A DNA stretch of 64,000 nt from Thermomicrobiales bacterium. Its GTDB lineage: Bacteria > Chloroflexota > Chloroflexia > Thermomicrobiales > UBA6265. Shown one piece after another: positions 8,406 through 39,487 of the stretch. The position numbers were made by a program, and so were the translations under genes. Location: contig JAMLHN010000006.1 of assembly GCA_023957115.1 (NCBI GenBank), positions 62,001 to 126,000 on the forward strand, read 5' to 3'. Under the pieces are notes generated by a model. That model saw only the letters and a list, made by a program, of their open reading frames with translations, did not search any database and was not told the origin of the DNA. The stretch's first letter is position 1. Every line of letters starts with the position of its first letter.

Positions 8406-10427
8406 TCAGGCGTGTTTGGCGCGTCTCGGTTGCGTCAACGACAGGCCGGCTCCAGCCGCCAGAGCCGCAAATCCAAGCAGGGCCAGGAGCGAGAGTTCAC
8501 CCAGACCACGCGTTCCTTCACCAGTCGATGGAAGCGTTGAGACGCTCGCAAGCGGATTGGCCACCAAATTCCGCGTGTGATACCCGGGGTTCCCCAACGA
8601 CGAACCAGTGTAGTTGCCGATCCCGCCGGCGACGGATCCACCGCCATTATTACCGATCGAACCGCCACCATTCGAGGCTCCGCCACCACCGCCGATAGAA
8701 CCGGGATTCGGCGCAGGCTCGACCGGCGCCTCCGGCATCGTCGCGGGCTCATCGCATCCGAACGCGGCGATCTCGACGACATCTCCGGCCGCAATGGTGA
8801 ACCCGTTCCGGGCATCCGAACCATTGGCGAAGAGCGCGCACCCGCTGGCGGACGAAAGCCGATAGGTCCCAGGCACCAGATGCGTGAAGTTGAGCGAGCC
8901 ATTCCCGCCCGTCGAAGCCGTAGAAATCACGTTGCCATCGCCATCGAGCAGCGATACCACGATTCCTGCACCGGAGCGAGCGCACCCGGTTGTCCAGTTA
9001 CCCCAATTCGAGGGATTGACCGACCCACTGACCGCCGACCCGCACCAGAACAGACTGGCCGAAACCGAGCCCGTCAGAATCGTGCTATTGATCGTTGCCG
9101 TCACGGAGCTACCTTCGGCGACCGTAACGTCCGCCGAAGCTCCAGTTGGGCCGTCGGTAACGACATAGTCACCGGCGGCGACATCGACCGATGTGCTGCC
9201 ATCCTCTCCAAGATCGATGGCCAGCGGGGCCGATTCCCCCCCCAGTGAGGAAACATTCACCGTCTGGTTGCTCGGTACACACGATTCGTTGTTCGGGCCC
9301 CCGTCGATCGTGATGAAGGTGCCTTCGTCCCCTTCGGCACAGTCATAGCGCTGGATCGTGAGCGTGCCCTTCGGACCAGGCACGTAATCGACCGCGAGCA
9401 CGATCGTCGTGGACCCACTGCGCACTTCGAGTGCCGTGGATGCGTTGTCATTGGCAATCGTGTACTCGCCAACCGGCAATGTTCCCGTCCAATTGCCGCC
9501 CCCATCGGTCACAACCGAATAGGTTCCGCCCGATCCGGTCACGGTGAACGCCCCACCGCCATCCGGCTCGCAACCAAGCGCCGCCGATTGCACGGCCAGC
9601 GGACCGACAACGATGAATTCAGTACGAGCCTCGCCCGATGTCGGGCACTGACCATTGGAAACCTGCAAACGACCGGCGGTCGCAACCTCGATATTCACGA
9701 GATATGCCGAAGCTCCGTCGGACGCCTGGACGGTCACCGAGCCCGATCCATCCGGGACGTAACCAGACGGAAGTGTGGATTGATCCTCCACGAACGTAAC
9801 CGTGCTGCCTTCGGGGGCATCGAATGAGACAACGCCGGATCCACCGGTCGCACCAGTGCCAAGCGATCCTTCAGCGGTCGAAGCGGTGATTCCAATGCCC
9901 GCCGCCGGCGAGCAATCGGAACTTCCGGACGGATCCCCACCGGCATAGTCGCTACTGCAGAGATAGACCACGAGCGAGACGCCAACCGACGCCGGTTCGA
10001 CGGTATCCGTTGCGGTCGGCGTTGGAGTTTCGGTCTCGGCAGGCTCAGAGGCCGTTTCGGTGGGAGACGCTTCGGAACCAGGCGTTCCGTCGCCAGTCGA
10101 GACGCCCGGATCTTCCTCGCCGCCGATTCCATCGCCGGTCGGCGTTTCCGTCACCGTGGGATCTTCGGTAGGCGATTCTTCCGGATCGGATTGTGCGCCC
10201 TCCTCCTCCGTATTGACGGGCTCCTCGCCGGAATCCCCAGTCGACGTCGTTTCCTCGCCACCAATGACGGTGGCCGGCTCGTCTCCGATCGAGATCTCGC
10301 CCTGACTTTGCGGAGTTGCGGTTGGGGAGGGCTCCTGCGCAACCACGGCTGCGGCCACTCCGGTCGACATGACCGACAAGAGCAACAACGCGGCAAGCCA
10401 GCGCAACATGGAAGAACGACGCATCAT
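8406..10427 (-). CDS. LPxTG-anchored SpaA/Cna-B-like surface protein
   Basis: About 673 residues. A Sec signal peptide (Leu-rich core then A-A-A-V-V-A-Q) is followed by a long Pro/Thr/Glu-rich stalk (about residues 30-150). Then come several beta-sandwich modules with G-x-Y-x-x-x-x-x-x-G-Y endings typical of prealbumin-like SpaA/Cna-B repeats and paired cysteines. A Gly/Asn linker precedes a sorting tail: LPSTGEG, a hydrophobic helix and a basic end (Q-P-R-R-A-K-H-A). The tail predicts covalent attachment to peptidoglycan by a sortase, none of which lies in this window. I chose the ATG at 10425-10427 (or the adjacent one at 10422); no strong ribosome site is visible. The giant Gly-rich gene is 172 bp upstream on the same strand. 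Confidence 0.85.
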   Translation of the reverse strand: MMRRSSMLRWLAALLLLSVMSTGVAAAVVAQEPSPTATPQSQGEISIGDEPATVIGGEETTSTGDSGEEPVNTEEEGAQSDPEESPTEDPTVTETPTGDGIGGEEDPGVSTGDGTPGSEASPTETASEPAETETPTPTATDTVEPASVGVSLVVYLCSSDYAGGDPSGSSDCSPAAGIGITASTAEGSLGTGATGGSGVVSFDAPEGSTVTFVEDQSTLPSGYVPDGSGSVTVQASDGASAYLVNIEVATAGRLQVSNGQCPTSGEARTEFIVVGPLAVQSAALGCEPDGGGAFTVTGSGGTYSVVTDGGGNWTGTLPVGEYTIANDNASTALEVRSGSTTIVLAVDYVPGPKGTLTIQRYDCAEGDEGTFITIDGGPNNESCVPSNQTVNVSSLGGESAPLAIDLGEDGSTSVDVAAGDYVVTDGPTGASADVTVAEGSSVTATINSTILTGSVSASLFWCGSAVSGSVNPSNWGNWTTGCARSGAGIVVSLLDGDGNVISTASTGGNGSLNFTHLVPGTYRLSSASGCALFANGSDARNGFTIAAGDVVEIAAFGCDEPATMPEAPVEPAPNPGSIGGGGGASNGGGSIGNNGGGSVAGGIGNYTGSSLGNPGYHTRNLVANPLASVSTLPSTGEGTRGLGELSLLALLGFAALAAGAGLSLTQPRRAKHA

Positions 10428-10599
10428 TTGTACGTAATCCCGACGCCCGGAGCCTGCTCCAGATTCGTCGTGCTGAACAATCCACACGCCCGGTTCATGG
10501 CGCACGATGCAGTGCGGGGGACGCGGGACCGGGTTGAGCGCATATGCAAACCCAACCGGAAATCCATCCTACCAGCGGCAGCAAAGGAGAACAACCCCG

Positions 10600-13500
10600 T
10601 CATCCGGCATTCCTCCGGCGCTGCGCGCGCACCCGAGCACGCTCCAGACGCTCCGCCTCTTCGTGCCGGCGCCGGACGAGGAATCCGAGGAACAGGAACG
10701 TCGAGCCGGCCAGAAATGCGACCGTCATCATTGCGCCAAGTTCCATACCATCCTCCGTCTGGCCACCAGTCGTCGGCAGCGCCTTGATCGATCGAATAAT
10801 GTCTTCGTTGGTCATGGTGGAGGGCGTCTTGCCTCCGCCATTATGGGTTGGCGTCGGGGTCACCGGGACAACGGGAGTTGGGGTCGGCGGGATCACCCCG
10901 GCGTCTCCGCTAACCGCATCGCCGCCATTTCCGCCGTCGCCACCTGCGCCGCCGTCACCGCCGGTCGCATCCCCGCTTACCGCGGTTCCGCCATCGCCGC
11001 CGGTCCCAGCGCCACCGGTTCCATCGGCGCCAGTCGCATCACCGCCGTCACCAGCGACATTGCCGCCGCCAGAAACATCCTGGCCGGTGACCGATTCGCC
11101 ACTGGCATGTCCACCGGCGCCGAATCCACCGGTTCCGTCGCCGGCCACCGAATTCGCCTGAGATTCAGGCGAACCCGCATCGCCACCAACGCCATCACCA
11201 CCGGTCGTACCGGCAAGGTCGATACTCGATTCGGCGTCTCCGCCAGCAACACCTTCAACGCTGACCGAGCCGCCCTGGTTTCCACCACCGGAGACATCGC
11301 CACAATCAGTGCCGCCATCGTCACCTTCGTTTCCGCCAATCATCGACGCATCGGCCGCCAGCACCGCCCCGAATCCGGTTGGCATTACCGCGCCAGAAAT
11401 CGCATCACATCCCTGCGTAAGGGTCATGACGGTCGGGCTTTCGATCCAGAATTCGGAAAGATCGGTGTCGACAGAAACCGCAGACTGCCCATCAACCGTG
11501 GTCACCACGCCGCCGCCGGATCCCTCACCGCCGGTCGCGCTTCCCCCATCGCTGGAGTCGCCACCATCTCCGTCGCCACCAGATCCAGGCCCGCCGGAAA
11601 CTGCCGCTCCCATCGTGACGCCACCGGTGGCATCGCCCGTGGCATCCCCACCGTCGCCGGCATTGCCGGTTCCGCCAGTTCCATCGGCTCCGGTTCCGTC
11701 GCCGCCGGTCGCTTCAGCATTGCCAGACGAGGCGGGTGCGCCGGTCCCACCGGTGCCACCCGATCCGCCGGTACCGCCAGTGGCGTCGCCAGATGTGGAG
11801 CTCGAGCCGTCACCACCGATGACCGTGTGCTCGCTCGAGCTGACATCGGAGTCGACACTCATCTCGACATCGGCATCTGCGCCGTCGTGACCTTCGGCGA
11901 CCCCGGAGATTGCGTCTCCGCCATCTCCCGCGGCGCCGCCGGCGCCACCGTCTCCGGCAGTCGCGGATCCACTCGTCGCGGTACCGCCATCACCGCCGGA
12001 GCCCGGGCCTCCAGTGCCCTGCCCGCCGGTGCCGGTACCGCCGGTACCACTCTGGTTGCTGCCACCGCTGACGTCGCCACCCTGCGTAGCCCCACCGGTT
12101 GCTGTACCGCCAGTGGCGTTGCCACCCAGGCCAGAACCCGCGCTCGAGCTCCCCGCATAGGCATTTCCACCGGCCGCGTTGCCGCCAGCATTGGAATCGA
12201 CCGTAGTCTCGACGGTTGCGTTTCCGGAGGTCACCGGACCGAGCGATGCGTCGCCGCCGCTGTTGTCGCCACCCGCGGTGCTTCCGCAGGAGCTCGAGCC
12301 ACCGGCTCCACCGTTGCCACCCGACGAGTTTGCGTCGCCACTGGCCTGACCACCTTCGCCGCCAACACCGCCGCTGCCACCAATCGCAGTACATCCGATC
12401 GTCGACGTGATGACCGAAACCGGTGCATCCGTTCCGAGCAGGCCCTCGATGACAGCTTGATCGTCGTCTGATAAGAGTCCGCCGTCAGCCAGGGCATCCA
12501 AGGCCTCGCCTCCGGTCATCGTTCCCGTGGTCACGATGCCGCCAATGACATTGCCCGAGGTGGCTGATCCGCCATCGATGGTTACGGAAACGTCACCCGC
12601 ATTCGCGACGCCTCCCGTGGCGCTGCCGCCATCACCAGCATCGCCACCGGCGCCGATACCACCGGTCGCGCCACCGCCGGTTGCATCCCCACCAATGGTC
12701 GAGCCGCCGGTCGTGTGTCCGACTGCCGATCCACCGTTGCCGCCAGCTCCAGTACCGCCGGCGCCATCCGCGCCGGTTCCGGAACCGCCATCAGCAGTGG
12801 CATTGCCGGTCGATACATCCGCGCCGTTGCCGCCGTTGCCGGCCGTTCCGGCCTGGCCGCCGGTTGCGTCTCCTGAGGCCGCGGACCCGCCGGTTCCACC
12901 GGTCGCAGAACCCGTCGGATCGACGCCCTGGACTTCGACATCAGATGATGCGTCACCGCCAGCGCCGCCGATCGCATCGCCGGTGACCGCGCTGCCGCCG
13001 TCGCCACCAGCCCCGCCGTCGCCACCAGCCCCGCCGGTCGCGGTTCCCGTTGTGGCCACGCCGCCGGCACCACCAGTCCCAGCTCCGCCGGTACCGGCGC
13101 CACCAGCTCCGTCACCACCAGCGCCGCCCATGTTGCCGCCGCCGGTGGTATCTCCACCGGTTGTTGCGCCGCTCGCCGCCGCGCCACCTTGCGCTCCACC
13201 GCCGACGGCACTACCTGCCGTCGAGGAACCCGCCGCCGCGCTGCCACCAGTGGCATCGCCACCGGAGCTCCCATCGACTGTTGTCGAAGCAGAAGCCGTG
13301 CCTGCGGTGACATCCCCATGGGTCGCGACACCCGCGGAATTGCCACCGCCGCTCACGTCGCCACAGCTTGCACCGCCACCGGCACCACCGTTGCCGCCGT
13401 TTGCCGTACCGCCGATGGCGCCTCCGCCCGAGCCAGCGTTTCCGCCCGCACCGCCAGTTGCCGAGCAACCGCCGGTAATCGAAATAATGTCGCCCTGAAT

Positions 13501-16500
13501 CGCGGTTCCCCCGGTGGCTGCACCACCGATTACCACTGCGGTTACGATATTGGTATCGACCGACCCGCCATTGGCATTGCCGCCGGTCGCATTTCCGCCG
13601 TTCCCAGCCTGGCCCACGGTCGCCGCGCCGCCGGTTCCGTCACCAGCGGTTGCATTGCCACCCTGGGTCGCGCCGCCGGTGGTATCTCCAATGGCCGCGC
13701 CACCGGTTCCACCCGTGCCAAGTCCGCCGGTACCATCGCCACCGGTTCCAGCCCCACCATTTGCCGAAGCGTTCCCGCTCGTCGCGGAACCACCGGTTCC
13801 GGCGTTGCCGCCGGCGGAGCCATCGGCCCCGGTCGCGTCACCAGTCGAGGCGTTTCCACCGCTGCCACCGGCCGAAACCGCATTCGCAACGGCATATCCG
13901 CCATTCGCCAAGGCATCGGCCGACGCATCTCCACCGTTGCCTCCAAAGGCATCGCCGGAAAAAGCGTTGCCGCCGGCTCCGCCGTCGCCTCCAGTGCCTC
14001 CGGATCCAGCATCGGCATCGCCCGCGGTCGCGGTTCCACCCGCCCCACCGGTTCCAACGCCACCGGTACCGGCGCCCCCAGCGCCACTGCCGCCGTCACC
14101 GCCTTGATTGTTTCCACCAGTTGTATTGCCACCCTGGGTTGCGCCGGACGTTGCGCTATCGCCCGAGCCGAGACCGCCGGTCGCGTCGCCACCCGCGGAG
14201 TCGCCCGCGGTCGCGTTCCCACCCGTCGCGCTTCCGCCGGTGCTGCCGCCAACGTTCGTTTCGCTCGATGCGCTTCCACCGGTGACATCACCGTGGACCG
14301 CGCCATCTCCATCGGAGCCGTTGTTGCCGCCAGTGGTGTCGCCGCAGCCTGCACCGCCACCGTCTCCGCCTACGCCACCATTCGCGGAGCCACTAACGGC
14401 CGCGCCACCGAAGCCACCGTCACCACCAGGGCCTCCGATTGCATCGCAGCCGTCGACGATCGAAACGACGTTACCGCCTTGCGCCAGACCGGACGTGGCA
14501 TCCCCGCCCACGACGGAAGGAACTTCGTCCTGACCCGGGCCGACCGTGGTGCTCGCGGTGCCACCCGTGGCATCGCCACCGGTCGCCGAGCCACCGGTCT
14601 GACCGTCACTGGCCGTGGCCGCACCACCGGTGCCTGTGCCACCAGTTGCCGAGCCACCAGTCGTCAGTCCACCATATGTCGCGCCAATGGCGTCGCCGCC
14701 ATTCCCGCCGATTCCCGAGCCACCCGTACCGGAGCCGCCGGTTCCAACGCCACCGCCGGCGGACCCGGAACCCGCGGCGGCATTGCCACCATCCGCTCCC
14801 GTCCCGCCAACGCCGCCCGAACCCGGATTGGCATCACCGCTGAACGCATTGCCACCGTTACCGCCGGTCGCGGAGCCCGTGGCGTCTCCGCCCCAGCTAC
14901 CAATGGCACTCGCCTCGGCATCGCCACCGTTTCCGGCCATGGAGTCACCCGAGATCGCGGTTCCCGCCTGTCCACCGGCTCCGCCAGTACCGCCGTCACC
15001 GCCGTTCGCGGTGCCGCCTGTGGCGGTCCCTCCGCTTCCACCGGTTCCGGTTCCGCCAAGCCCGAGACCACCGGTGCCGGTTCCACCGTCGCCGCCCTGG
15101 TTTCCACCACCCTCGGTGTCGCCGCCGGTGGTATCGCCGCTCGCCGCGGATCCGCCCGTGGCGCCACCGCCAGCAGCATTGCCGCCGGACGACGAGCCAC
15201 CGGTCGCATTGCCACCCTGAGCATTACCGCCGGTGTTGCCTGTTACCTGAATCGTCGATGAAGCGTTGCCACCGGTAGTGTCGCCATGAACGGCATTTCC
15301 GCCATGATTGGAGACGTTGAAGGTCGATCCGCAGCTCGGCACATCGCCGCCGCTGCCGCCGTCGCCACCCGTTGCACTCCCACCATTCGCAGCAGCGCCG
15401 CCATAGCCGCCGTCTCCACCCTGGCCACCTGCTGCGTTGCAACCAGTTGTGGGATGGTACGTGCTACCACCGACCGCAACGACATTTCCATTGTTGGTTG
15501 CGCCACCCGACTGGACCCAATCTCCGGTCACATCGGTGATGCCATCCCCGCCGGTGGCCGTGCCACCCGTGGCGGATCCACCGTCACCACCATCGCCAGC
15601 CGTGGCTTCGCCGCCGGCCGCGTCGCCACCGGTCGCGTCACCGCCGGCGGTATCGCCCCCAAAGGTGCCGCCACCGGCATCGCCGCCGGACCCGCCGGTT
15701 CCGTCGCCACCGTGACCGCTGCCCGCAGTTGAATTTCCGCCGGTCGCCGACGCGTTTCCGCCGGTTGCGGTCCCGCCGTTGCCACCAGAACCGCCAGGAC
15801 CGCCCTCCGCGGTACCGATAGATCCCGCATTGGCGCTACCGCCCGTGCCGGCATCGGCCTCGGCGTCAGCTGAGCTGCCGGTCCCAATGGTCGATTCGTA
15901 TTCCGAGCTATTGCCATCGTCACCGGTGGAAATCAGGCCACCGATCGCCACGGTGCCGAGCCCAGCGTCGCCGCCGTCTCCGCCCTGACCACCGGTTCCA
16001 TCGCCGGCAACCGCGTTACCGCCGGCGCCTGCGTTCGAGCCGCCGGCCACGCCAGGGCCGCCATAGGCATTCCCGCCTTGCCCAGCGATATTCCCTCCGC
16101 CGATCGTCGTGCCACTCGTGACCGCGCCACCGACCGCCGCGCCACCGTTTGCAACTCCACCAACGGCGCTTCCCCCGGTCGAGGATCCGCCAAAGGCAGC
16201 TCCGCCGGTGGCATCGCCGCCGGTGTTCCCATCAACAGTCACAATCGAGATCGCGTTGCCGGAACGGAAGTCTCCAACAGTGGCGTTGCCACCAAGTCCA
16301 TTGCCATCGGTGGTGGTCTGATCGGATGCAGCGCCACCAACCCCGCCAGCACCGCCGCTTGCATTCGAACCGGCCGTTGCAGCCCCGCCCAATCCAGCGG
16401 AACCCGAGTTGCCGCCGACTGAAACACCGGACTGGGTCGCGCCGGTGACGCTCCCTCCCTGGCTGGCGGATCCACTTACCTGAACCGTGCCATGGGAGGA

Positions 16501-16911
16501 CTGGCCCCCGGTGACATTGCCGCTGGCGTTGCCGCCGACCCCGTCTCCGCCAATCGCGTTTCCGGCGGTGCCGGCATTGCCGCCCGTGGAGTTGCCGCCG
16601 GTTGCGTTTCCACCCGTCGTCGAGCCTCCCGTTGCGTCTCCGCCAACCGTTCCGCCGGACGACCCACCCGAATTGCCGCCAGTCGCGTCCCCGCCGGTCG
16701 CATCGGCTCCGGTGGCATCGCCCCCGGTTGCGTCGCCATCTCCGCCGGTGCCGCCACCGGAGGTTCCACCATCCTGATAGAGCTGGATTCCATTCCCTGC
16801 GGAGGGCGCGAACGAGGCAAGCGTTGGATTGACGAACGCAACCAGGCTGAGCACAAGCAAAGCGACAGCAGCCAGACGAAGTCCGGTGCCGATCCGCTTC
16901 ACGACTCCCAT
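10600..16911 (-). CDS. Giant Gly-rich macro-repeat protein with LPxTG wall anchor
   Basis: A 2103-residue secreted protein. The signal peptide (about residues 1-32, core A-A-V-A-L-L-V-L-S-L-V) leads into nearly 2000 residues built from short G-G-[ND]-A-[TS]-G-G words. At larger scale there are five macro-repeats of about 327-358 residues. Each contains one cysteine pair 34-36 residues apart (Cys 491/527, 822/856, 1149/1183, 1507/1542, 1835/1870) embedded in G-C-x-A-x-G-G and C-G-[DS]. A Pro/Thr spacer precedes the sorting tail with LPTTGG, one helix and an Arg-rich end. The composition recalls PE_PGRS, silk-like and polyglycine-II proteins; a structural role on the cell surface is inferred. 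The + strand is strongly C-rich here. Start ATG 16909-16911; AGGAAG lies upstream. Confidence 0.88.
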   Translation of the reverse strand: MGVVKRIGTGLRLAAVALLVLSLVAFVNPTLASFAPSAGNGIQLYQDGGTSGGGTGGDGDATGGDATGADATGGDATGGNSGGSSGGTVGGDATGGSTTGGNATGGNSTGGNAGTAGNAIGGDGVGGNASGNVTGGQSSHGTVQVSGSASQGGSVTGATQSGVSVGGNSGSAGLGGAATAGSNASGGAGGVGGAASDQTTTDGNGLGGNATVGDFRSGNAISIVTVDGNTGGDATGGAAFGGSSTGGSAVGGVANGGAAVGGAVTSGTTIGGGNIAGQGGNAYGGPGVAGGSNAGAGGNAVAGDGTGGQGGDGGDAGLGTVAIGGLISTGDDGNSSEYESTIGTGSSADAEADAGTGGSANAGSIGTAEGGPGGSGGNGGTATGGNASATGGNSTAGSGHGGDGTGGSGGDAGGGTFGGDTAGGDATGGDAAGGEATAGDGGDGGSATGGTATGGDGITDVTGDWVQSGGATNNGNVVAVGGSTYHPTTGCNAAGGQGGDGGYGGAAANGGSATGGDGGSGGDVPSCGSTFNVSNHGGNAVHGDTTGGNASSTIQVTGNTGGNAQGGNATGGSSSGGNAAGGGATGGSAASGDTTGGDTEGGGNQGGDGGTGTGGLGLGGTGTGGSGGTATGGTANGGDGGTGGAGGQAGTAISGDSMAGNGGDAEASAIGSWGGDATGSATGGNGGNAFSGDANPGSGGVGGTGADGGNAAAGSGSAGGGVGTGGSGTGGSGIGGNGGDAIGATYGGLTTGGSATGGTGTGGAATASDGQTGGSATGGDATGGTASTTVGPGQDEVPSVVGGDATSGLAQGGNVVSIVDGCDAIGGPGGDGGFGGAAVSGSANGGVGGDGGGAGCGDTTGGNNGSDGDGAVHGDVTGGSASSETNVGGSTGGSATGGNATAGDSAGGDATGGLGSGDSATSGATQGGNTTGGNNQGGDGGSGAGGAGTGGVGTGGAGGTATAGDADAGSGGTGGDGGAGGNAFSGDAFGGNGGDASADALANGGYAVANAVSAGGSGGNASTGDATGADGSAGGNAGTGGSATSGNASANGGAGTGGDGTGGLGTGGTGGAAIGDTTGGATQGGNATAGDGTGGAATVGQAGNGGNATGGNANGGSVDTNIVTAVVIGGAATGGTAIQGDIISITGGCSATGGAGGNAGSGGGAIGGTANGGNGGAGGGASCGDVSGGGNSAGVATHGDVTAGTASASTTVDGSSGGDATGGSAAAGSSTAGSAVGGGAQGGAAASGATTGGDTTGGGNMGGAGGDGAGGAGTGGAGTGGAGGVATTGTATGGAGGDGGAGGDGGSAVTGDAIGGAGGDASSDVEVQGVDPTGSATGGTGGSAASGDATGGQAGTAGNGGNGADVSTGNATADGGSGTGADGAGGTGAGGNGGSAVGHTTGGSTIGGDATGGGATGGIGAGGDAGDGGSATGGVANAGDVSVTIDGGSATSGNVIGGIVTTGTMTGGEALDALADGGLLSDDDQAVIEGLLGTDAPVSVITSTIGCTAIGGSGGVGGEGGQASGDANSSGGNGGAGGSSSCGSTAGGDNSGGDASLGPVTSGNATVETTVDSNAGGNAAGGNAYAGSSSAGSGLGGNATGGTATGGATQGGDVSGGSNQSGTGGTGTGGQGTGGPGSGGDGGTATSGSATAGDGGAGGAAGDGGDAISGVAEGHDGADADVEMSVDSDVSSSEHTVIGGDGSSSTSGDATGGTGGSGGTGGTGAPASSGNAEATGGDGTGADGTGGTGNAGDGGDATGDATGGVTMGAAVSGGPGSGGDGDGGDSSDGGSATGGEGSGGGVVTTVDGQSAVSVDTDLSEFWIESPTVMTLTQGCDAISGAVMPTGFGAVLAADASMIGGNEGDDGGTDCGDVSGGGNQGGSVSVEGVAGGDAESSIDLAGTTGGDGVGGDAGSPESQANSVAGDGTGGFGAGGHASGESVTGQDVSGGGNVAGDGGDATGADGTGGAGTGGDGGTAVSGDATGGDGGAGGDGGNGGDAVSGDAGVIPPTPTPVVPVTPTPTHNGGGKTPSTMTNEDIIRSIKALPTTGGQTEDGMELGAMMTVAFLAGSTFLFLGFLVRRRHEEAERLERARVRAQRRRNAG

Positions 16912-17552
16912 CTGATGGAGTCTTCCTGGGCTACGCATCGGGAGCCTTCACCAAGATGTGCTCCAACCTTCCCTGCGAATGCGGAGCCAGTGCCGGCTCC
17001 CATTCACACCACATGGCGCCGCAAGAACACAACGAGCCGACGGGCGCATTCGCACCCTTCGGCTCAGTCCTACTCCCGCCTTCCCGCACCGTCGATCATC
17101 AATCGTTCTTTCGGCCGTACGACCCATGTCCCCGGTTGCGTCCAGGTCGTCCAAACCGAACCCTTTCATTCTCCCGCACAAGGAGAATGATGTTTGAAAG
17201 AGCGTCCGCACGTCAGACGCGCGCCGGCAACGAATCGAGGGGCGTAGATTGCATTTCGAACGCTCGATCGTGCCGGATCTCTCTATCGCATCTTATCGGC
17301 CCAGTCCGGGTATTGCAACAGCCACTACCAGGACAAGCGAGCAAGTAGACGCAATTTTAGCGAACGCTGCTGCGGATTGACCGCAATGTAGAACCAATCC
17401 ACTGCCGCCAGGCAAGCGTTCCTCTCGGATAGAGTAGTGTTTTCGTTCGTCTCTCGGTGTCGATGAGCGTCGACACCGGCCGACGCTCGCACCGGTCCAG
17501 ATGAACATCGAGGATTTTGTCCCGGTTCATCTCACTCTGGAGGTCACTCACT
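16912..17552. other. Non-coding divergent control region with hairpins
   Basis: Six hundred bases between divergent surface-protein genes without a credible gene. It holds short inverted repeats: GGAGCC/GGCTCC at 16984-17001, CATTCTCC/GGAGAATG at 17167-17189, and GGTGTCGA/TCGACACC at 17456-17477 in the leader of the cupin gene. A riboswitch was considered but no known core motif is recognisable. Confidence 0.5.
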
Positions 17553-18830
17553 ATGCCACTCCGGCTCCTGGGCCGACTCGCCCTGGTCATACCATTGCTT
17601 GCCATCACACTGACCGGTGCGATTCTGCCCGCCGCCGCTCAGGACGACGGCGAATCAGGAGTACTGATCGACGTCACGCTCGATGCCGGCGACTATCCCG
17701 TCGCCCCGGCATTCGTTCGGCTCTTGCGCATCACACTCGAGCCCAACGCCAGCAGCCCGCTGCACACGCACCCTGGACCCGAGATCGCGCTGGTCGAGCG
17801 TGGAACGCTGACCGTTCAGGTCAATGGTCCGGCCGAGCTCGATGTCGCAGATCAGGACCCTGGCGACGGAACGCCCGCATCCGGACAGCTCGCTCCAGCC
17901 GGCTCCGAGTTCGAGATGACCGCGGGCGATCAGCTTGCCTACCTGCCACAAACACCGATGACCTTCCGGAACGCTGGGTCCGAACCCGTTTCGATTCTGA
18001 GTGTGGTCCTTCTTCCGGCCGGACATCAGCACCCCCCCGGCATTACGTATCTCAATGGGCAACCGGCAACCGATGCCTTCGACGGCGTGACTCCCCAGAT
18101 CCTCGGTGACGGCGTTGCATCCGCCATGCCGGCAAACGGTATCCGGATCGTCGTCGACGAGCTCAGCCTCGATCAGGGCGCGCCAATTCCCGCGTCATCC
18201 AGTCAGACGCTGCTCTCCCTCCAGCAAGGTGGGCTCGACTTCACCGTCATTGGGGGCAAGGCGCAAGTCTCCCGAGGAGCGACGCCCGGTCCGCAGTCGG
18301 ACACGCCTCCAGGCACCGAAAACAATCTGGCCGTGAACGATGCACTCTTCTTCCCACTCGGGAATAAGGAAGCCGCACGACCCGAGACCGATGCGCCGAT
18401 TTCATTTCTGCGCATGACAATTTCTCCGGCCAGCCCGCAATCTGAGCCAACGCCGACCGGTGAAGGTCAGGCAGAGCTTCATGTAACCGGAACCGAAATC
18501 ACCCCGACTCCAGCGCCGGGCACCGGGACGCCGGTTTCCGCGGCAACGAGCACGCCGGAAGCGCAGGCGTCACCGACGGCCACCCCACCAACTGGGCCAC
18601 AGGAAGGCGACAGCATTGTGGTGAACTCCGAAGGCGTCAACCTGCGCGCATGCGGAAGCACCGACTGCGAGATCGTGACCCAGCTCTATTTTGGGCAGAC
18701 CGTAACGATCCTGGGGCAATCCGAAGATGACGGCGAATACATCTGGTGGCCAGTGTCAGTCGATGACGACCCGTCGATCACCGGATACGTGGTACAGGAC
18801 TTCCTCGATTTGCCGGAATCGGGCGAGTAG
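17553..18830 (+). CDS. Secreted cupin protein with C-terminal SH3b domain
   Basis: A 425-residue exported protein. The ATG at 17553 follows GGAGG at good spacing and begins a Sec signal peptide ending in P-A-A-A-Q. A first cupin barrel (about residues 35-150) contains P-L-H-T-H-P-G-P-E, a likely metal site of two His and a Glu. A second barrel-like segment follows (about 180-290). A Thr/Pro linker leads to a bacterial SH3 domain (about 350-420) with V-N-L-R-A-C-G and a Cys pair. SH3b domains often bind cell-wall peptides, so attachment to the wall is likely. The ligand is unknown. Confidence 0.8.
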   Translation: MPLRLLGRLALVIPLLAITLTGAILPAAAQDDGESGVLIDVTLDAGDYPVAPAFVRLLRITLEPNASSPLHTHPGPEIALVERGTLTVQVNGPAELDVADQDPGDGTPASGQLAPAGSEFEMTAGDQLAYLPQTPMTFRNAGSEPVSILSVVLLPAGHQHPPGITYLNGQPATDAFDGVTPQILGDGVASAMPANGIRIVVDELSLDQGAPIPASSSQTLLSLQQGGLDFTVIGGKAQVSRGATPGPQSDTPPGTENNLAVNDALFFPLGNKEAARPETDAPISFLRMTISPASPQSEPTPTGEGQAELHVTGTEITPTPAPGTGTPVSAATSTPEAQASPTATPPTGPQEGDSIVVNSEGVNLRACGSTDCEIVTQLYFGQTVTILGQSEDDGEYIWWPVSVDDDPSITGYVVQDFLDLPESGE

Positions 18831-18978
18831 ATTCGCCGCGTCGAGGTAACTGGCGCGCCGGTTGCCTCGATACGCGAGTCTGGTAGCATCCGGCGTGCCG
18901 CGCTCGGCGGTTCGTGTAAATCCCGCGTCTTGCTTTTGCGGGTGAACGCAAGTCACCCATTCTCCGAGGTTGAACACG

Positions 18979-20370
18979 ATGCTCAAACGAAGATTGCGAA
19001 CTCTCGCCCTCGCGGGCTCCCTGACGCTGGTTGGCGCGATTCCCCTCCTCCCGGTTGCCGCCACGGTCCAGCCGAGCTACGACACGATCAGAATCGACAG
19101 CGAGGGTTCTGCCACGCTGTATGAAGTGTCGATCGACTGGTCGCCCTTGGTGCTCAATCTGCCGGATGGCGGTGCTTGGGGATTCTTCACCGCCCAACTT
19201 CGCCTGCCAACCGAGCCCGGCGCCGACCCGACACTTTCCAACCGTCAGCTCTTCGCCACCCGCTTCGATCCGGGAACGGGAACCTGGCAGCCGGCCGTTG
19301 CCCTGCCAGGCGTGGTCAGCTTTGGTCCAACTGGCGTCGTCGACAGCACCGGCAACGCGCATCTCGTCTATACGATTCGAGGATCACTAGAGGCAGATTC
19401 GTACTCGACGCTGGTCTATCTGACCGCCGACGGATCGGGCCAGTGGAGCCAGCCCGCGGTCATCGTGCCCAGTGAGACCGCTGGACATCAGCTCAGCCCG
19501 GACCTGACCATCGACAGCGATGGCGGGATTCACCTCGCCTGGCAGGACCAGCGCGGCATTTCCGACGAGCTTCGCGCCGCCGACCCGTCCAATGCCGATG
19601 TCTTTGTCAGCGATCTGAACCCGGACGGTTCCTGGTCCGAGCCGGTCCAGTTGAACGTGCGGCCCGACGATCAGACGAACGCAAGCCGGCCGCAGCTCGT
19701 CGCCGATGGCGACCGGCTGGTGGCGGTCTGGTCGGTCTACAACACCGAGATTGGCCTCAACACGGCCACCACCCTGATGTGGAGTCAACGCAGCATCAAC
19801 GATCCGAATAGCTGGAGCGAACCACAGGCCGTCTTCGATCGGGGCTCGGACCTTATCGGCGGTCGTTTCCTCGATCTGGCCGACGATCCCGCCGGCGGCG
19901 TGACCCTTGTCTATGGGCGGCGCACCGAGGACGCGAATCAGCTCTACCTGCAGCGGCTGGACCAGGGTGGGGATGCCTGGAGCGAGGCAGCCCTCGTTGC
20001 CGAAGGTGACCGCGGCAGCTATCCGAAAATTGCCGTCGATTCCGATGGCACGACCTATATCGTCTACAACCTGGGAAGCGGTGTTTCGGTGAAAGTCGGA
20101 GCCATTGCGATCGCTCCAGGCGAGACCGTCGCCGGCACGGAAGAAACGATCACCGCCGGCGAAGAGGGCATCCAGGGGATTGCCGCCGTTTCGGTCGATA
20201 CGCTCGGCCGCCCGTGGATCATGTATTTCCATCAGCCGCTGCAGCAACCCGTGGAAGAGGCGCGCGTGCTGCGCTCGGCCTCGATCTCGAGCGCCCCGGC
20301 CGAAGCCCCCGTCACCGATGCGACGGTCGAAGCCGAGGCTCCGGAGGCATCCCCCGAAGCGTCGGAGTAG
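18979..20370 (+). CDS. Secreted beta-propeller-like (BNR/sialidase-fold) protein
   Basis: A 463-residue exported protein. The signal peptide (basic K-R-R-L-R, then hydrophobic, ending P-V-A-A-T) precedes repeated blades with Asp-box-like patterns such as D-S-D-G-G-I-H-L-A-W and D-S-T-G-N-A-H-L-V-Y, plus the recurring W-S-[EQ]-P words of BNR propellers. The Ala/Pro/Glu-rich C-terminus looks disordered and has no anchor. Sialidase catalytic residues are not evident, so carbohydrate binding or a scaffold role is safer than an enzyme claim. Start ATG 18979 follows GAGG by nine bases; the TTG at 18970 sits too close to it. It is co-oriented with the cupin gene 148 bp upstream. Confidence 0.75.
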   Translation: MLKRRLRTLALAGSLTLVGAIPLLPVAATVQPSYDTIRIDSEGSATLYEVSIDWSPLVLNLPDGGAWGFFTAQLRLPTEPGADPTLSNRQLFATRFDPGTGTWQPAVALPGVVSFGPTGVVDSTGNAHLVYTIRGSLEADSYSTLVYLTADGSGQWSQPAVIVPSETAGHQLSPDLTIDSDGGIHLAWQDQRGISDELRAADPSNADVFVSDLNPDGSWSEPVQLNVRPDDQTNASRPQLVADGDRLVAVWSVYNTEIGLNTATTLMWSQRSINDPNSWSEPQAVFDRGSDLIGGRFLDLADDPAGGVTLVYGRRTEDANQLYLQRLDQGGDAWSEAALVAEGDRGSYPKIAVDSDGTTYIVYNLGSGVSVKVGAIAIAPGETVAGTEETITAGEEGIQGIAAVSVDTLGRPWIMYFHQPLQQPVEEARVLRSASISSAPAEAPVTDATVEAEAPEASPEASE

Positions 20371-20423
20371 TCGGCGCCGCGAACCCGGCTCGCCGAAAAC
20401 CCGGAATTCAAAGTTGCGCACAA

Positions 20424-20449
20424 CGGTCCCGGATGATCATCCGGGACCG
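20424..20449. repeat. Perfect 26-bp palindrome
   Basis: An uninterrupted palindrome (arms CGGTCCCGGATGA) 53 bp after the propeller gene stop. It lacks a T-tract, so it is a possible operator or hairpin for the downstream repeat-protein gene rather than a classical terminator. Confidence 0.5.
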
Positions 20450-20543
20450 ATTGCGTTCGGCCAGGGTAGCCGGTACACTGGGTTTCGGTCTCCCGCTACG
20501 GGAATGTGAATCTGCGCGCCATGGGCACGGGTTCACCGCAGGG

Positions 20544-23500
20544 ATGGGTAGGTCTTTGAAACGTTCTTGGAACCGACAGTCGATCGCGATTGCCGCGGTT
20601 CTTTCCTTCCTGTTAGCGGCCTCTCTCGTCGCTCCGGGTGTGCGTGCCGATGATATCGGCGCCGGAGCCGATACGGAGGTCGATGCAGCCGCAATCGTTG
20701 GACTCGACTCAGCGTCGATAACCTCCGGGGGTGGACACACGGGCGGCAATGGCTTCGGAGCCGCCGCGGAAGGTGGACATTCGACCGGTGGTGACAGCAC
20801 GGGCGGCGCCGCAAACGGCGGCCCGGCGACCGGCGGTCCGGTCACGTCTGGAAGTACCTCAGCCAAACCAGCCGGCCAGGGGCAGAATGCCCAGGGTTCC
20901 GATGGGATCGATGGCAATCTTCTTCCGCAAACGACAACAACCTCTCCGTCATTAGTGACGATTTCTGGAGCCGATGGCGGTGACGGCACCGGCGGGACCG
21001 GTGGCACCGGCGCCAACGGGTTCAGCGCGATTGGCGGCGATGCCACCGGTGGCGGAGTTCGTGGCGGAAATGCGACCGGCGGCACCGGCACCGGTGGCGC
21101 CGGCGGTCTTGCCGGCAACGCGCAGGGCGGTAATGGCCGCGGCGGCAACGCATCCGGCTCGACCGTCGGCAATACGGCGGTTGGACAATCGGTCTCCGGA
21201 ACCGACTCCCAGGGTGGCGACGCCACCAGCTCGACGGTCAGTCAGGGCAATACGGGTGGCAACGGCGTCGGCGGAACCGGGACCGGGGGCAACTCCGAAG
21301 GCGGTGACGGCACCGGCGGCGCTGCCAACGGCGGCTCCGCGACCGGCGGCGTCGTCCGTGCTGGAGATACGACTGGCGGTCAAGGCGGCCAGGGCGGCAC
21401 CGGAACCGGTGGAGACGGAGGCGACGGCGGGGCGGTAACCCACGTCGCCAGTGAAATCACACAGAGCAGTGCACTGGACTGGGAAGGCGCTGGCAATACC
21501 CAGGTGCTAGGTGGCTCCGGTGGCGATGGCGCCGAAGGCGCCGGCGGAACCGGTGGCGATGGCGGCCTGGCGGTCGGCGGCGATGCCTTCGGTGGCAATG
21601 TCACCGGTGGCAACGGGACCGGTGGTAAAGGTGTCGGCGGCAACGCCGGCCAGGCGGGTACCGGCTACGGCGGCAATGGCACTGGCGGCAATGCCAGCGG
21701 TGACACAATTGGCGGCAGCGCCATCGGCGGCAACGCGGTTGGCAGCGGATCGATCGGCGGCTCAGCGCTCGCGCATACCGAAGGCGGCGGCAATCAAGGC
21801 GGCGCCGGTACCGGCGGTGCTGGCTATGGCGGCGACTCGCTCGGCGGCCAGGGCACGGGCGGTCAGGGCACCGGTGGAGGCGCCCAGGGCGGCGACGTTC
21901 ACGGCGGCACCACGACCGGGGGCACCGGCGGTACCGGCGGCACCGGACTCGGCGGCGATGGCGGAAACGGCGGCGATGTCGCATTGACCGAGATCGACGC
22001 TACGTATTCTGGCGGAGACGTGACGGTCACTGGTCTTGGCGGGAACACGGCGATTGCCGGAGACGGCGGTCAGGGTGGCGACGCCACCGGTGGTCAGGGC
22101 AGCGAAGGCGGAGATGCGGTCGGTGGTCGCGTCGTCGGCGGCAGTGTCACCGGCGGAAATGGCACCGGTGGCCTCGGCGTCGGCGGCAATTCCGGAACGG
22201 CCGGTCAGGGGCATGGTGGGAACGGTTATGGCGGCAACGCCAGTGGCACCACCGTCGGCGGCAACGCCACCGCGGGGAGCGGCGCCGGCTCCCAGGGTGG
22301 CGCCCTTTCGGACACAACGCATAACGCGAATGTCGGTGGGGTCGGTACCGGCGGCAACGGCTACGGCGGCGACGCTTTGGGCGGCACCGGCCAGGGTGGA
22401 TTCGGCCAGGGTGGCAACGCCACGGGCGGCGACGTCTACGAAGGCAACACCTATGGTGGAATCGGTGGTCAGGGCGGGCTCGCTCAAGGCGGATCTGGCG
22501 GCGCCGGCGGCAACGCGGTCATTTCTGGACTCGTCGTGACCTCCACGGACACACCGAATGGATCTATTTCCGCCATCAAGACTGGCGATTTCACCGCTGC
22601 CGGCAATGGCGGCGCGGGCGGCAATGCCCTTGGCGGCGATGCCGGCCAGGGTGGCTCAGCGACCGAATCGACCGGCGTTCTTGGCACGGTCGTTGGCGGT
22701 AAGGGAACCGGAGGCGCCGGTGTCGGGGGCTCGGGCGGCAACGCGGGTACCGGGCACGGCGGTAATGGCAGCAGTGGCAACGCAAGTGGCACCGGGGTTC
22801 CCGGCACGCAAAGCGACGCCGGTGGCACCACACCGGGCCAGATCGCGGTCTCCCCGAACATCTCACCGGATGATGTCGACGGCGAAGGCTACGACGGTGT
22901 CTCCGAAGATGGAGAGGGCCTCGAGGGCGATTATGCCGACGGCATTGCGACCCCTGGCGAAATCATCGAAGGCGAAACCGAGGACGGTCACATCGGCAAC
23001 GGTGGGGACGCCATCGGTGGACAAGGTGGGCAGGGCGGCAGCGCGGCGACCATCGGAATCATGACTTATGGATTCACGGGCTCCATCGATCTGACCCAAA
23101 CGGGCGCCGACTTCACGCTGGGCGGCAACGGCGGTGCGGGCGGTTCTGCGACCGGCGGCTATGGCTACATCGGAGGCAACGCCTTTGGTGGGGCCGGTGG
23201 CGCGGGCGGTGGGGCCTTCGATGCCCAGGTACTCGACCAGTCCTGCAACGTCTCGAATCTCATGTTCGATCTCACCAACGGACCGCGCGCCGAAATCGAC
23301 AGCGACTGCTCCCCCTCGACGGAAGCCGACCTCGTCTTTGGCGGCGTGGGCGGCGATGGCGGGACCGCGATCGGCGGACTGGGGCTGATCGGAGGCGGCA
23401 ACGCGATCGGCAGCGACGGTGGTGACGGCGGTTGTGGCCTTCGGTGGCGCATCGTATGGCGGCGATGGCGGCGGGCGGCAGCCGCGATTGCAACAGATGC

Positions 23501-23975
23501 CAATGCAACCGGTGGTGACGGCGGCGATGGTGGAAACGCCTCCGGAGTCATCGCAACGGCCGGCAACGGCGGCGCGGGCGGCGATGCAACCGCGTACGGC
23601 GGCGACGCGGTTGGCGGTGACGGTGGCGATGGCGGTGTCGCCGTCTCGACCGGCGGTACAACATCCGGCGGTAACGGGGGAGCTGGTGGCAACGCCACGG
23701 CCTATGGTGGCAACGCGACCGGAGGCAACGGCAGTCAACCCGGTTCGATCGACGCCGGCTCGGTCGGCGGGAACGGCGGAACCGCGGTCTCCGTCGGCGG
23801 CGATGCGACCGGCGGCAACGGTGGCGGCCTCGCCGACGGCGGTTGTGCCGTCTCGGTCGGTGGCAACGCGACCGGCGGTTCCGGCGGAACCGGCGGCTAC
23901 GACGGCTGTGGCGTCACCATGAACGACGCAGACGGTGACGGCATCTACGATATCGACTGGGGCAACGCCCCGTAG
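20544..23975 (+). CDS. Second Gly-rich macro-repeat secreted protein, no wall anchor
   Basis: About 1143 residues. A Sec signal peptide (basic K-R-S-W-N-R-Q, hydrophobic core, A-P-G-V-R-A-D) leads into G-G-N-G-x-G-G word repeats. These are arranged in larger units of roughly 185 residues that share G-T-G-Y-G-G-N-G-T-G-G-N-A-S-G-type passages. The end differs from the giant protein: no LPxTG or helix, but D-A-D-G-D-G-I-Y-D-I-D, an EF-hand/type-3-like calcium loop. Between about 23431 and 23478 the frame is locally wrong (L-R-W-R-I-V-W-R-R-W-R-R); the Gly-rich pattern continues in another frame, suggesting a compensated pair of indels. ATG 20544 is assumed; TTG 20556 is possible. Confidence 0.82.
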   Translation: MGRSLKRSWNRQSIAIAAVLSFLLAASLVAPGVRADDIGAGADTEVDAAAIVGLDSASITSGGGHTGGNGFGAAAEGGHSTGGDSTGGAANGGPATGGPVTSGSTSAKPAGQGQNAQGSDGIDGNLLPQTTTTSPSLVTISGADGGDGTGGTGGTGANGFSAIGGDATGGGVRGGNATGGTGTGGAGGLAGNAQGGNGRGGNASGSTVGNTAVGQSVSGTDSQGGDATSSTVSQGNTGGNGVGGTGTGGNSEGGDGTGGAANGGSATGGVVRAGDTTGGQGGQGGTGTGGDGGDGGAVTHVASEITQSSALDWEGAGNTQVLGGSGGDGAEGAGGTGGDGGLAVGGDAFGGNVTGGNGTGGKGVGGNAGQAGTGYGGNGTGGNASGDTIGGSAIGGNAVGSGSIGGSALAHTEGGGNQGGAGTGGAGYGGDSLGGQGTGGQGTGGGAQGGDVHGGTTTGGTGGTGGTGLGGDGGNGGDVALTEIDATYSGGDVTVTGLGGNTAIAGDGGQGGDATGGQGSEGGDAVGGRVVGGSVTGGNGTGGLGVGGNSGTAGQGHGGNGYGGNASGTTVGGNATAGSGAGSQGGALSDTTHNANVGGVGTGGNGYGGDALGGTGQGGFGQGGNATGGDVYEGNTYGGIGGQGGLAQGGSGGAGGNAVISGLVVTSTDTPNGSISAIKTGDFTAAGNGGAGGNALGGDAGQGGSATESTGVLGTVVGGKGTGGAGVGGSGGNAGTGHGGNGSSGNASGTGVPGTQSDAGGTTPGQIAVSPNISPDDVDGEGYDGVSEDGEGLEGDYADGIATPGEIIEGETEDGHIGNGGDAIGGQGGQGGSAATIGIMTYGFTGSIDLTQTGADFTLGGNGGAGGSATGGYGYIGGNAFGGAGGAGGGAFDAQVLDQSCNVSNLMFDLTNGPRAEIDSDCSPSTEADLVFGGVGGDGGTAIGGLGLIGGGNAIGSDGGDGGCGLRWRIVWRRWRRAAAAIATDANATGGDGGDGGNASGVIATAGNGGAGGDATAYGGDAVGGDGGDGGVAVSTGGTTSGGNGGAGGNATAYGGNATGGNGSQPGSIDAGSVGGNGGTAVSVGGDATGGNGGGLADGGCAVSVGGNATGGSGGTGGYDGCGVTMNDADGDGIYDIDWGNAP

Positions 23976-38183: not shown

Positions 38184-39487
38184 CAGGGCTTATGCGCGAG
38201 TGAGCAGGGAGGGATGACAACGAACGAGCTCCACTGGCAGGATAGATCGTAGCTACCCGACCCCATCCCGCCAAGGAGCTCATCATGCAGTCTACGGTAT
38301 CCCCGACCCCGTTGGCCGTCACACCGGCCAGCCTGTTCGACGCCTTTGCCCAGGTGCCGGACCCACGGCGCGCCGCCAGCGTGCACTTTCCCCTCGCCGC
38401 GATCTTAGCCACGACGGTGGCGGCGGTCCTCTCCGGTCAGCAGTCGGTGCTGGCCATCAGTGAGTGGATCGCTCGGCAGCCCGCAGAAATGCGGACCTCC
38501 TTGGGCTTTCCCGATGCGACCACTCCCCACCAATCGACCGTACAGCGCCTTTTTGCCAAACTCGATAGCCAGACGCTGAGTCACGCGTTGAGCACCTTCG
38601 TAGCGTCGGTTGCCGAGCCGGGGGAGACGCCGCTCACCGGGGTTGCCATCGACGGCAAGGCGCACCGGGGCCGCTTGCCATTTGGCCACGCGGGCTGTCC
38701 GGTCCATGCCGTAAGCGCCATCTGCCATCGGACGGGGGTCGTCTTGGCACAGCACGCGGTCGACGCGGTACGGCAGACCGATCGCGCCGAGGCGGAACTG
38801 ACGGTTGCTCCGAAGCTGATCGAGCGCATCGCCTGGCCGGGACGGGTCCTGACGGGCGATGCCTTGTACTGCCAGCGGTCCCTGTGCCAGCAGGTGGTGG
38901 CGGCCGGAGGTGACTATCTGCTGGTCGTCAAGCAGAATCAGCCGCAACTCTTTGCCGATATCCAGCTGCTCTTCGATCCGCCGACACAGTTGCGCACCAT
39001 ACCCTTGCACGATCGACGACAGGCCGAAACGATCGAGTCCGGGCATGGACGACGGCAGGATCGGCGGCGGCTGACGGCATCGACCGACCTGGTCGGCTAT
39101 CTCGATTGGCCCGGGCATGCCCAGGTGCTGCGCATCGAACGCACGTGGGAGGAACACCACCAGCCACACCGGTCTCTCACCTATGCCATCACGAGTCTGT
39201 CCCCAGCACGAGCCGATGCCGCGCAATTGCTGGCGCTCAAACGGGGGCATTGGACCATCGAAAACCGGTTGCATCGATGCAAAGATGTCAACTTTGGGGA
39301 AGATGCCAGCTTGATCCATACGGGATCCGGGCCGCAGATCATGACGCTGGTGCGCGACGTCGCCATCGGTCTGCTCTACCTCACCGGTGTTCGGCAGATT
39401 GCGGCTCGGCTGCGGTGGCATGCCCAATACCCAGCGGAAGCCGTTGCCTTGGTCATTGACCCACTCCCTACTCGCGCATAAGCCCTG
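38184..39487 (+). mobile_element. Complete ISAs1-family insertion sequence
   Basis: A 1304-bp element bounded by a perfect 18-bp terminal inverted repeat (CAGGGCTTATGCGCGAGT at 38184-38201 and its complement at 39470-39487). It is flanked by an exact 10-bp direct repeat GCAGGGACTT at 38174-38183 and 39488-39497, the target-site duplication. It carries one intact transposase gene. Intact ends and duplication mean the insertion is recent. Confidence 0.95.
38285..39481 (+). CDS. ISAs1-family DDE transposase
   Basis: A 398-residue transposase with the N-terminal P-D-P-R-R signature of H-repeat/ISAs1 proteins. It has the first catalytic Asp in V-A-I-D-G-K-A, the second in L-T-G-D-A-L-Y-C-Q, and a C-terminal R-G-H-W-x-I-E-N-R-L-H with the Glu. 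The ATG at 38285 follows AAGGAG. The stop lies inside the right terminal repeat. The frame is intact, so the element may be active. Confidence 0.95.
   Translation: MQSTVSPTPLAVTPASLFDAFAQVPDPRRAASVHFPLAAILATTVAAVLSGQQSVLAISEWIARQPAEMRTSLGFPDATTPHQSTVQRLFAKLDSQTLSHALSTFVASVAEPGETPLTGVAIDGKAHRGRLPFGHAGCPVHAVSAICHRTGVVLAQHAVDAVRQTDRAEAELTVAPKLIERIAWPGRVLTGDALYCQRSLCQQVVAAGGDYLLVVKQNQPQLFADIQLLFDPPTQLRTIPLHDRRQAETIESGHGRRQDRRRLTASTDLVGYLDWPGHAQVLRIERTWEEHHQPHRSLTYAITSLSPARADAAQLLALKRGHWTIENRLHRCKDVNFGEDASLIHTGSGPQIMTLVRDVAIGLLYLTGVRQIAARLRWHAQYPAEAVALVIDPLPTRA

Follow-up and report, generated by a model that had tools for sequence, protein, structure and literature searches.

The window analysed here is a 64,000-nucleotide stretch of Thermomicrobiales bacterium DNA (assembly GCA_023957115.1, contig JAMLHN010000006.1, positions 62,001 to 126,000). 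Its minus strand encodes, at 10600–16911, a 2103-residue glycine-rich protein composed of a series of old, homologous units of about 330 residues kept in strict register. We interpret it, with a probability of about one half, as a sortase-anchored structural surface protein, namely, an acidic extended fibre or coat built from ordered modules of glycine pentads, most of which would be closed by a disulfide. The open reading frame spans 10600–16938 (2112 residues); the second ATG, at 16911, is favoured as the start because of its better ribosome-binding site (AGGAAG, 10 nucleotides upstream), and the resulting length is that given in the first-pass annotation of the window. The features of the protein are as follows, residues of the units and cysteines being numbered on the 2112-residue reading.

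16804–16911, minus strand: Sec-type signal peptide region, counted from the second Met, with a basic n-region and the core LAAVALLVLSLVAFV
16477–16773, minus strand: N-terminal partial unit (C-terminal half), no Cys, profile model positions 214–312, 17 bits
15442–16434, minus strand: unit 0, full, Cys-less, residues 169–499, by alignment and 285 bits to the unit profile
14449–15441, minus strand: unit 1, residues 500–830, Cys 500/536
15331–15441, minus strand: Cys loop 1, spacing 36
13468–14448, minus strand: unit 2, residues 831–1157, Cys 831/865
14344–14448, minus strand: Cys loop 2, spacing 34
12394–13467, minus strand: unit 3, residues 1158–1515, Cys 1158/1192, C-terminal insertion (VIEGLL...)
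13363–13467, minus strand: Cys loop 3, spacing 34
11410–12393, minus strand: unit 4, residues 1516–1843, Cys 1516/1551
12286–12393, minus strand: Cys loop 4, spacing 35
10858–11409, minus strand: unit 5, half unit, residues 1844–2027, Cys 1844/1879, 168 bits over model positions 1–166
11302–11409, minus strand: Cys loop 5, spacing 35
10843–10896, minus strand: Pro/Thr spacer, wall-spanning, VIPPTPTPVVPVTPTPTH
10603–10779, minus strand: sorting signal, LPTTG (10765–10779) with a hydrophobic stretch and an Arg-rich tail

Units 1 to 4 are delimited by the cysteine map, the alignment and the profile, and the loops by the cysteine map. The first cysteines of successive pairs are 331, 327, 358, and 328 residues apart, and the six units (the segments between first cysteines and the 331 residues preceding the first pair) are aligned by MAFFT almost without gaps, in agreement with the period of about 327–358 residues noted in the first-pass annotation. 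The repeat is larger than stated there, comprising also a sixth, Cys-less unit, half units at both ends, and a sub-period of five residues. According to the unit profile, five full units, the first of them (169–499) without cysteines, are followed by a C-terminal half unit and preceded by a weak match to the C-terminal half of a unit, which recurs at the equivalent place in three homologues with 35–67 bits. Units are about 45–50% identical to each other (about 49% within the window protein), their pairwise scores exceed those of shuffles preserving 20-residue blocks by z = 10–15, and rotation of one unit by half its length lowers the alignment score by about 35–55%.

Mismatches between units amount to 0.34, 0.40, and 0.67 at the first, second, and third codon positions, respectively, and the same codon is used at only 589 of the 1624 residues conserved between units. 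Synonymous sites are saturated and the copies are old; given the difference between codon positions, they have been constrained as protein in the sense frame, that is, the protein is under selection.

Relatives were searched for in whole genomes with one unit as the query; when the whole protein was the query, an initial scan of named genomes gave no match. Three proteins were found, all from the window organism's own family: a paralogue in the window genome (L018, 2291 residues), a homologue in G004, the metagenome-assembled genome of Thermomicrobiales bacterium ACE_CHL14 (L019, locus L049, 2345 residues), and a homologue in genome G015 (L020, 2092 residues). In a profile search, all four proteins have a partial unit, full units 0–4, half unit 5, and an LPXTG motif, so that six in-register units of about 330 residues together with a C-terminal sorting tail (LPTTG or LPATG in the homologues) define the family. 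The third Cys-bearing unit is longer than the others (358 residues in the window protein, 360 in L018, and 369 in L019), and its insertion is similar in all three Cys-bearing proteins (VIEGLLGTDAPVS, VFEGLGIDPIG, DVEGLLADWFVDPVS); therefore the six-unit plan predates their split. The tree of units is mostly unresolved (two of 21 branches starred), and identity between units at the same position is only slightly higher. Matches occur in five of the 61 genomes of the order Thermomicrobiales and, among 400 sampled genomes of the phylum, in G000 and G004 only, these absences being soft, since many of the assemblies are fragmented and are interrupted by long repeats. No family match was found for the window protein in Pfam (E 0.1) or NCBIfam, no solved structure in a PDB sequence search, and no match among plasmids and phages by tblastn.

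L018 and L019 share with the window protein the six-unit plan, five Cys pairs, LPXTG, and a common gene neighbourhood; they differ from it in Cys loops that are longer, at 36–56 residues, an additional GDCTGxC cysteine tail, and a His/Gly tail before LPXTG. The three GDCTGxC-like words (eight cysteines) and the His/Gly stretch of these proteins (L018, 5339–12211; L049, 9800–16795) are possibly metal-binding. The G004 assembly also contains, at a contig end, a sequence (L050) 97% identical to the first 134 residues of its protein, which is either a further copy or a fork in the assembly. An open reading frame antisense to the L049 homologue (10619–16858, minus strand, 2079 residues) was rejected as a gene, since homology, third-position saturation, and the sorting signals all lie in the sense frame; such a long antisense frame is a by-product of glycine and alanine codon use.

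The window protein has exactly ten cysteines, forming pairs 500/536, 831/865, 1158/1192, 1516/1551, and 1844/1879 with spacings of 36, 34, 34, 35, and 35 residues, respectively, so that the five pairs 34–36 residues apart described earlier were confirmed in both count and spacing. In the 24 units of the four proteins, the pairs are all-or-none (both cysteines in 15 units, none in nine, a single one in zero), although kinship of these units leaves only a few independent events. Unit 0 has no pair in any of the three Cys-bearing proteins, and L020 is Cys-free throughout. Across the homologues, the loop between paired cysteines ranges from 34 to 56 residues with both ends kept. Pairs retained or lost as a whole, and a loop variable in length with fixed ends, form the pattern that a disulfide-closed loop predicts.

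The glycine content of the protein is 35%. The dominant sub-period is five residues, GG-[DNST]-[AG]-T, with 80 clean pentads, and 63 GGxGG triads are also present; period 5 dominates in all four family proteins. The Asp-rich core has 175 acidic residues and a single Lys/Arg in 1975 residues, and the acidic to basic ratios in the homologue cores are 218/1, 174/8, and 117/7. Loss of Arg at about 65–70% G+C, we infer, cannot come from base composition.

Signals for export and anchoring are found at the two ends of the protein. A hydrophobic segment behind the basic n-region was read from the sequence as a Sec signal peptide, and at the C-terminus LPTTG is followed by the hydrophobic stretch AMMTVAFLAGSTFLFLGFLV and then by RRR... 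Three matches to the sortase family PF04203 above the cut-off are present in the same genome. An N-terminal Sec signal, a C-terminal sorting signal, and a genome-encoded sortase being the features of LPXTG surface proteins, this protein is likely anchored by a sortase at the surface, probably to the cell wall, which supports the LPTTGG anchoring proposed in the first-pass annotation.

Small glycine-rich proteins of 234–252 residues (L002, L042, L027) show similarity to the unit's central core; they have no cysteines and carry twin-arginine signals. Such single-core proteins occur in the window genome (L002), G004, and G048, and a weaker core match in G015 is a 264-residue open reading frame (G015:C182:5039-5269). 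TatC is present in the window genome. The twin-arginine translocation (Tat) system exports folded proteins, and thus the Tat-borne single cores suggest that the unit core probably folds by itself.

Taking all this into account, six homologous glycine-pentad modules, folded and strung out in an extended chain, would project from the wall. The GG-[DNST]-[AG]-T and GGx words, rich in Asp and nearly free of Lys and Arg, would give rise to a fibre or coat that is hydrated, acidic, and protease-poor, with a mechanical or matrix-forming role, and in the Cys-bearing modules an intramolecular disulfide would close one loop of 34–56 residues and fix the entry to the module. More tentatively, and with rather less confidence than in the surface fibre or coat as such, the 330-residue unit may represent a new fold, an ordered glycine-pentad solenoid or spiral with only Gly, Ala, Ser, and Thr inside and one disulfide loop, making a bacterial structural fibre convergent in design with flagelliform silk.

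Several observations weigh against the interpretation as a disulfide-closed modular fibre. The G015 homologue L020 keeps the repeat with no cysteine at all, and hence disulfide stapling is no general requirement; of the stapled modules proposed in the first-pass annotation, the joint retention and loss of cysteines in 24 units stands, and the generality does not. The disulfide-forming enzyme VKOR is present in the window genome and in G015, the homologue of which is Cys-free, but was not found in G004, the homologue of which carries the pairs; as its occurrence does not follow the Cys pairs, VKOR was rejected as their correlate. The cysteines may also form intermolecular cross-links. Structure prediction, the check named in the earlier annotation, gave no fold for the unit: AlphaFold2 inputs of 414 residues with 10 alignment rows and 192 residues with 12 rows (units of the window protein and of L049) yielded predicted local distance difference test (pLDDT) values of 38.8 and 37.6, which, at 10–12 rows, is weak evidence. 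The first job gave weak strands at the Cys loop (pLDDT about 60), which the second failed to reproduce, and Foldseek found no match in PDB, the model confidence (pLDDT 38) being too low for this to be meaningful. Finally, the function is deduced solely from composition and anchoring.

Among the alternatives, a disordered elastomeric brush like flagelliform silk, with cysteines cross-linking neighbouring chains, survives best, and we consider it possible, if somewhat unlikely. It agrees with the lack of a structure predicted by AlphaFold, as well as with the mixture of five- and three-residue glycine words, the distinct spacer, and the long ensemble repeats, all of which are seen in silk (PMC6168590). 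In contrast, the unit length is strictly conserved across saturating divergence, only 1–7 of the 332 shared columns being absent from full units of the three Cys-bearing proteins (1–43 from those of L020), and such near-constant length seems easier to reconcile with an ordered fold held strictly in register than with a disordered brush. Proline, moreover, is scarce (1.4%), and all-or-none Cys pairs within units fit intramolecular loops better.

A polyglycine-II sandwich or rod (a structure proposed for the PGRS domains of mycobacteria and known in antifreeze proteins of springtails), here stapled by disulfides, is improbable. Polyglycine II needs glycine triplets, that is, period 3. Five-glycine runs at this period cover 8.2% of the core, compared with 6.1% in shuffled sequences (z 1.0), whereas those at period 5 cover 39.6% compared with 9.9% (z 9.9); in the homologues, z is 0.2–3.0 and 5.9–7.7, respectively, which puts period 5 at about 6–10 over the four proteins. 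Since period-3 runs are no commoner than in shuffles, polyglycine II, suggested in the first-pass annotation, is unsupported as a general fold. The high glycine content and short triad runs (GGxGGxGGxGG), located in the Cys loop and elsewhere in the unit, speak in its favour, and these blocks could adopt it locally; a search for glycine at every third residue over several turns found short local triad runs only. The units are also nearly gapless, whereas the PGRS model tolerates large indels (PMC9436101).

Still less probable is a calcium-binding adhesin arm of the RTX-like beta-roll type, in which the Asp-rich words would be calcium sites: despite the abundance of acidic residues (175) and 19 GGxGxD words in the core, there is no Pfam match at E 0.1, the words do not form tandem nonads, identity at lag 9 (0.17) equals the baseline, and the period is 5, not 9. 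A low-complexity product of replication slippage with no specific role, for which the simple composition and the patchy distribution (five of 61 genomes of the order) might speak, is scarcely credible and is refuted as the main explanation by the identity of only about 49% between units, the saturation of their third positions, their conserved register, the six-unit plan common to two genomes and a paralogue, the position-specific insertion in the third Cys unit, and the near absence of Lys and Arg.

The neighbourhood of the gene contains two further surface or secreted proteins.

8406–10505, minus strand: 699-residue LPSTG protein with a SpaA/prealbumin-like domain (PF17802 above the cut-off)
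20214–23975, plus strand: open reading frame of a second large Gly-rich secreted protein, similar in texture but without LPXTG, the real start being further in, at the MGRSLKR Met

The LPSTG/SpaA gene lies 94 bp downstream of the giant glycine-rich gene on the same strand; the two likely form one operon encoding two sortase substrates. The upstream genes are divergent (17517–23975) and encode a cupin/SH3 protein, a protein with BNR repeats, and the second Gly-rich protein, a block also present ahead of the G004 homologue, while GNAT, methyltransferase, and penicillin-amidase genes downstream are common to the paralogue L018 and the G004 locus. As the neighbours are split between the window locus and L018, one G004 locus corresponds to two loci in the window genome. 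The second Gly-rich protein ends in a DxDxDG-type motif and is conserved in the G004 locus (L049, 2764–6273, minus strand). At 23427–23505 (plus strand), about 75 nucleotides of its gene are read in another frame (GGCGLRWRIVWRRWRRAAAAIATDAN) between normal flanks, and the L049 orthologue reads through; two compensating frameshifts, real or assembly-derived, may explain this. A DDE transposase gene (PF13808 and PF01609) is found at 38285–39481 (plus strand).

If the modules are folded, a chain with 35% Gly and almost no hydrophobic or basic residues has retained a fixed architecture of 330 residues through long evolution, and this would bear both on the folding of glycine-rich proteins and on the cell covering of Thermomicrobiales. 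The Cys-free homologue and the single-core mini-proteins provide natural controls on the role of disulfides. In the related Thermomicrobium roseum, an unidentified protein rich in Gly, Pro, Glu, and Ala dominates the wall (PMC2615216); a link to it was rejected, as no homologues were found outside the window organism's family in the genomes of the order and phylum that were scanned.

Several known systems resemble the window protein in part. Like repetitive LPXTG surface proteins (serine-rich, SdrD-type), it has a secretion signal, a long repetitive stalk, a Pro/Thr spacer, LPTTG, a hydrophobic stretch, a basic tail, and sortases; unlike theirs, its stalk has 35% Gly, pentad words, and 330-residue units, with no recognised adhesin domain or repeat family. 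It was not assigned to RTX proteins (no Pfam match to the PF00353 nonapeptides GGxGxDxUx and no 9-residue period), nor to pentapeptide repeats (PF00805, A(D/N)LXX with a central Leu/Phe), for which there is no Pfam match, the pentad GG-[DNST]-[AG]-T having no Leu/Phe. Springtail antifreeze proteins have glycine at every third residue. These polyglycine-II-type proteins of Collembola (PMC10235112) are similar in glycine richness and short extended chain elements, and differ in being much smaller, with no wall anchor and no 330-residue unit. PE_PGRS proteins of mycobacteria (PMC9436101) are alike in length, surface location, high glycine content, and GGx, GGD, and GGN words. Membership in that family was rejected because the window protein has no N-terminal PE domain (no Pfam match, E 0.1) and its glycine period 3 is at chance with period 5 dominant; it differs further in its fixed macro-repeat, Cys pairs, LPXTG, and phylum, with no detectable homology. 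Flagelliform spidroin, with its ensemble repeats of GPGGX, GGX, and spacer (PMC6168590), likewise combines pentads, GGx triads, and a non-glycine spacer within long repeats; being a eukaryotic silk with Pro-rich pentads and a charged spacer instead of the Cys loop, it resembles the window protein in design only.

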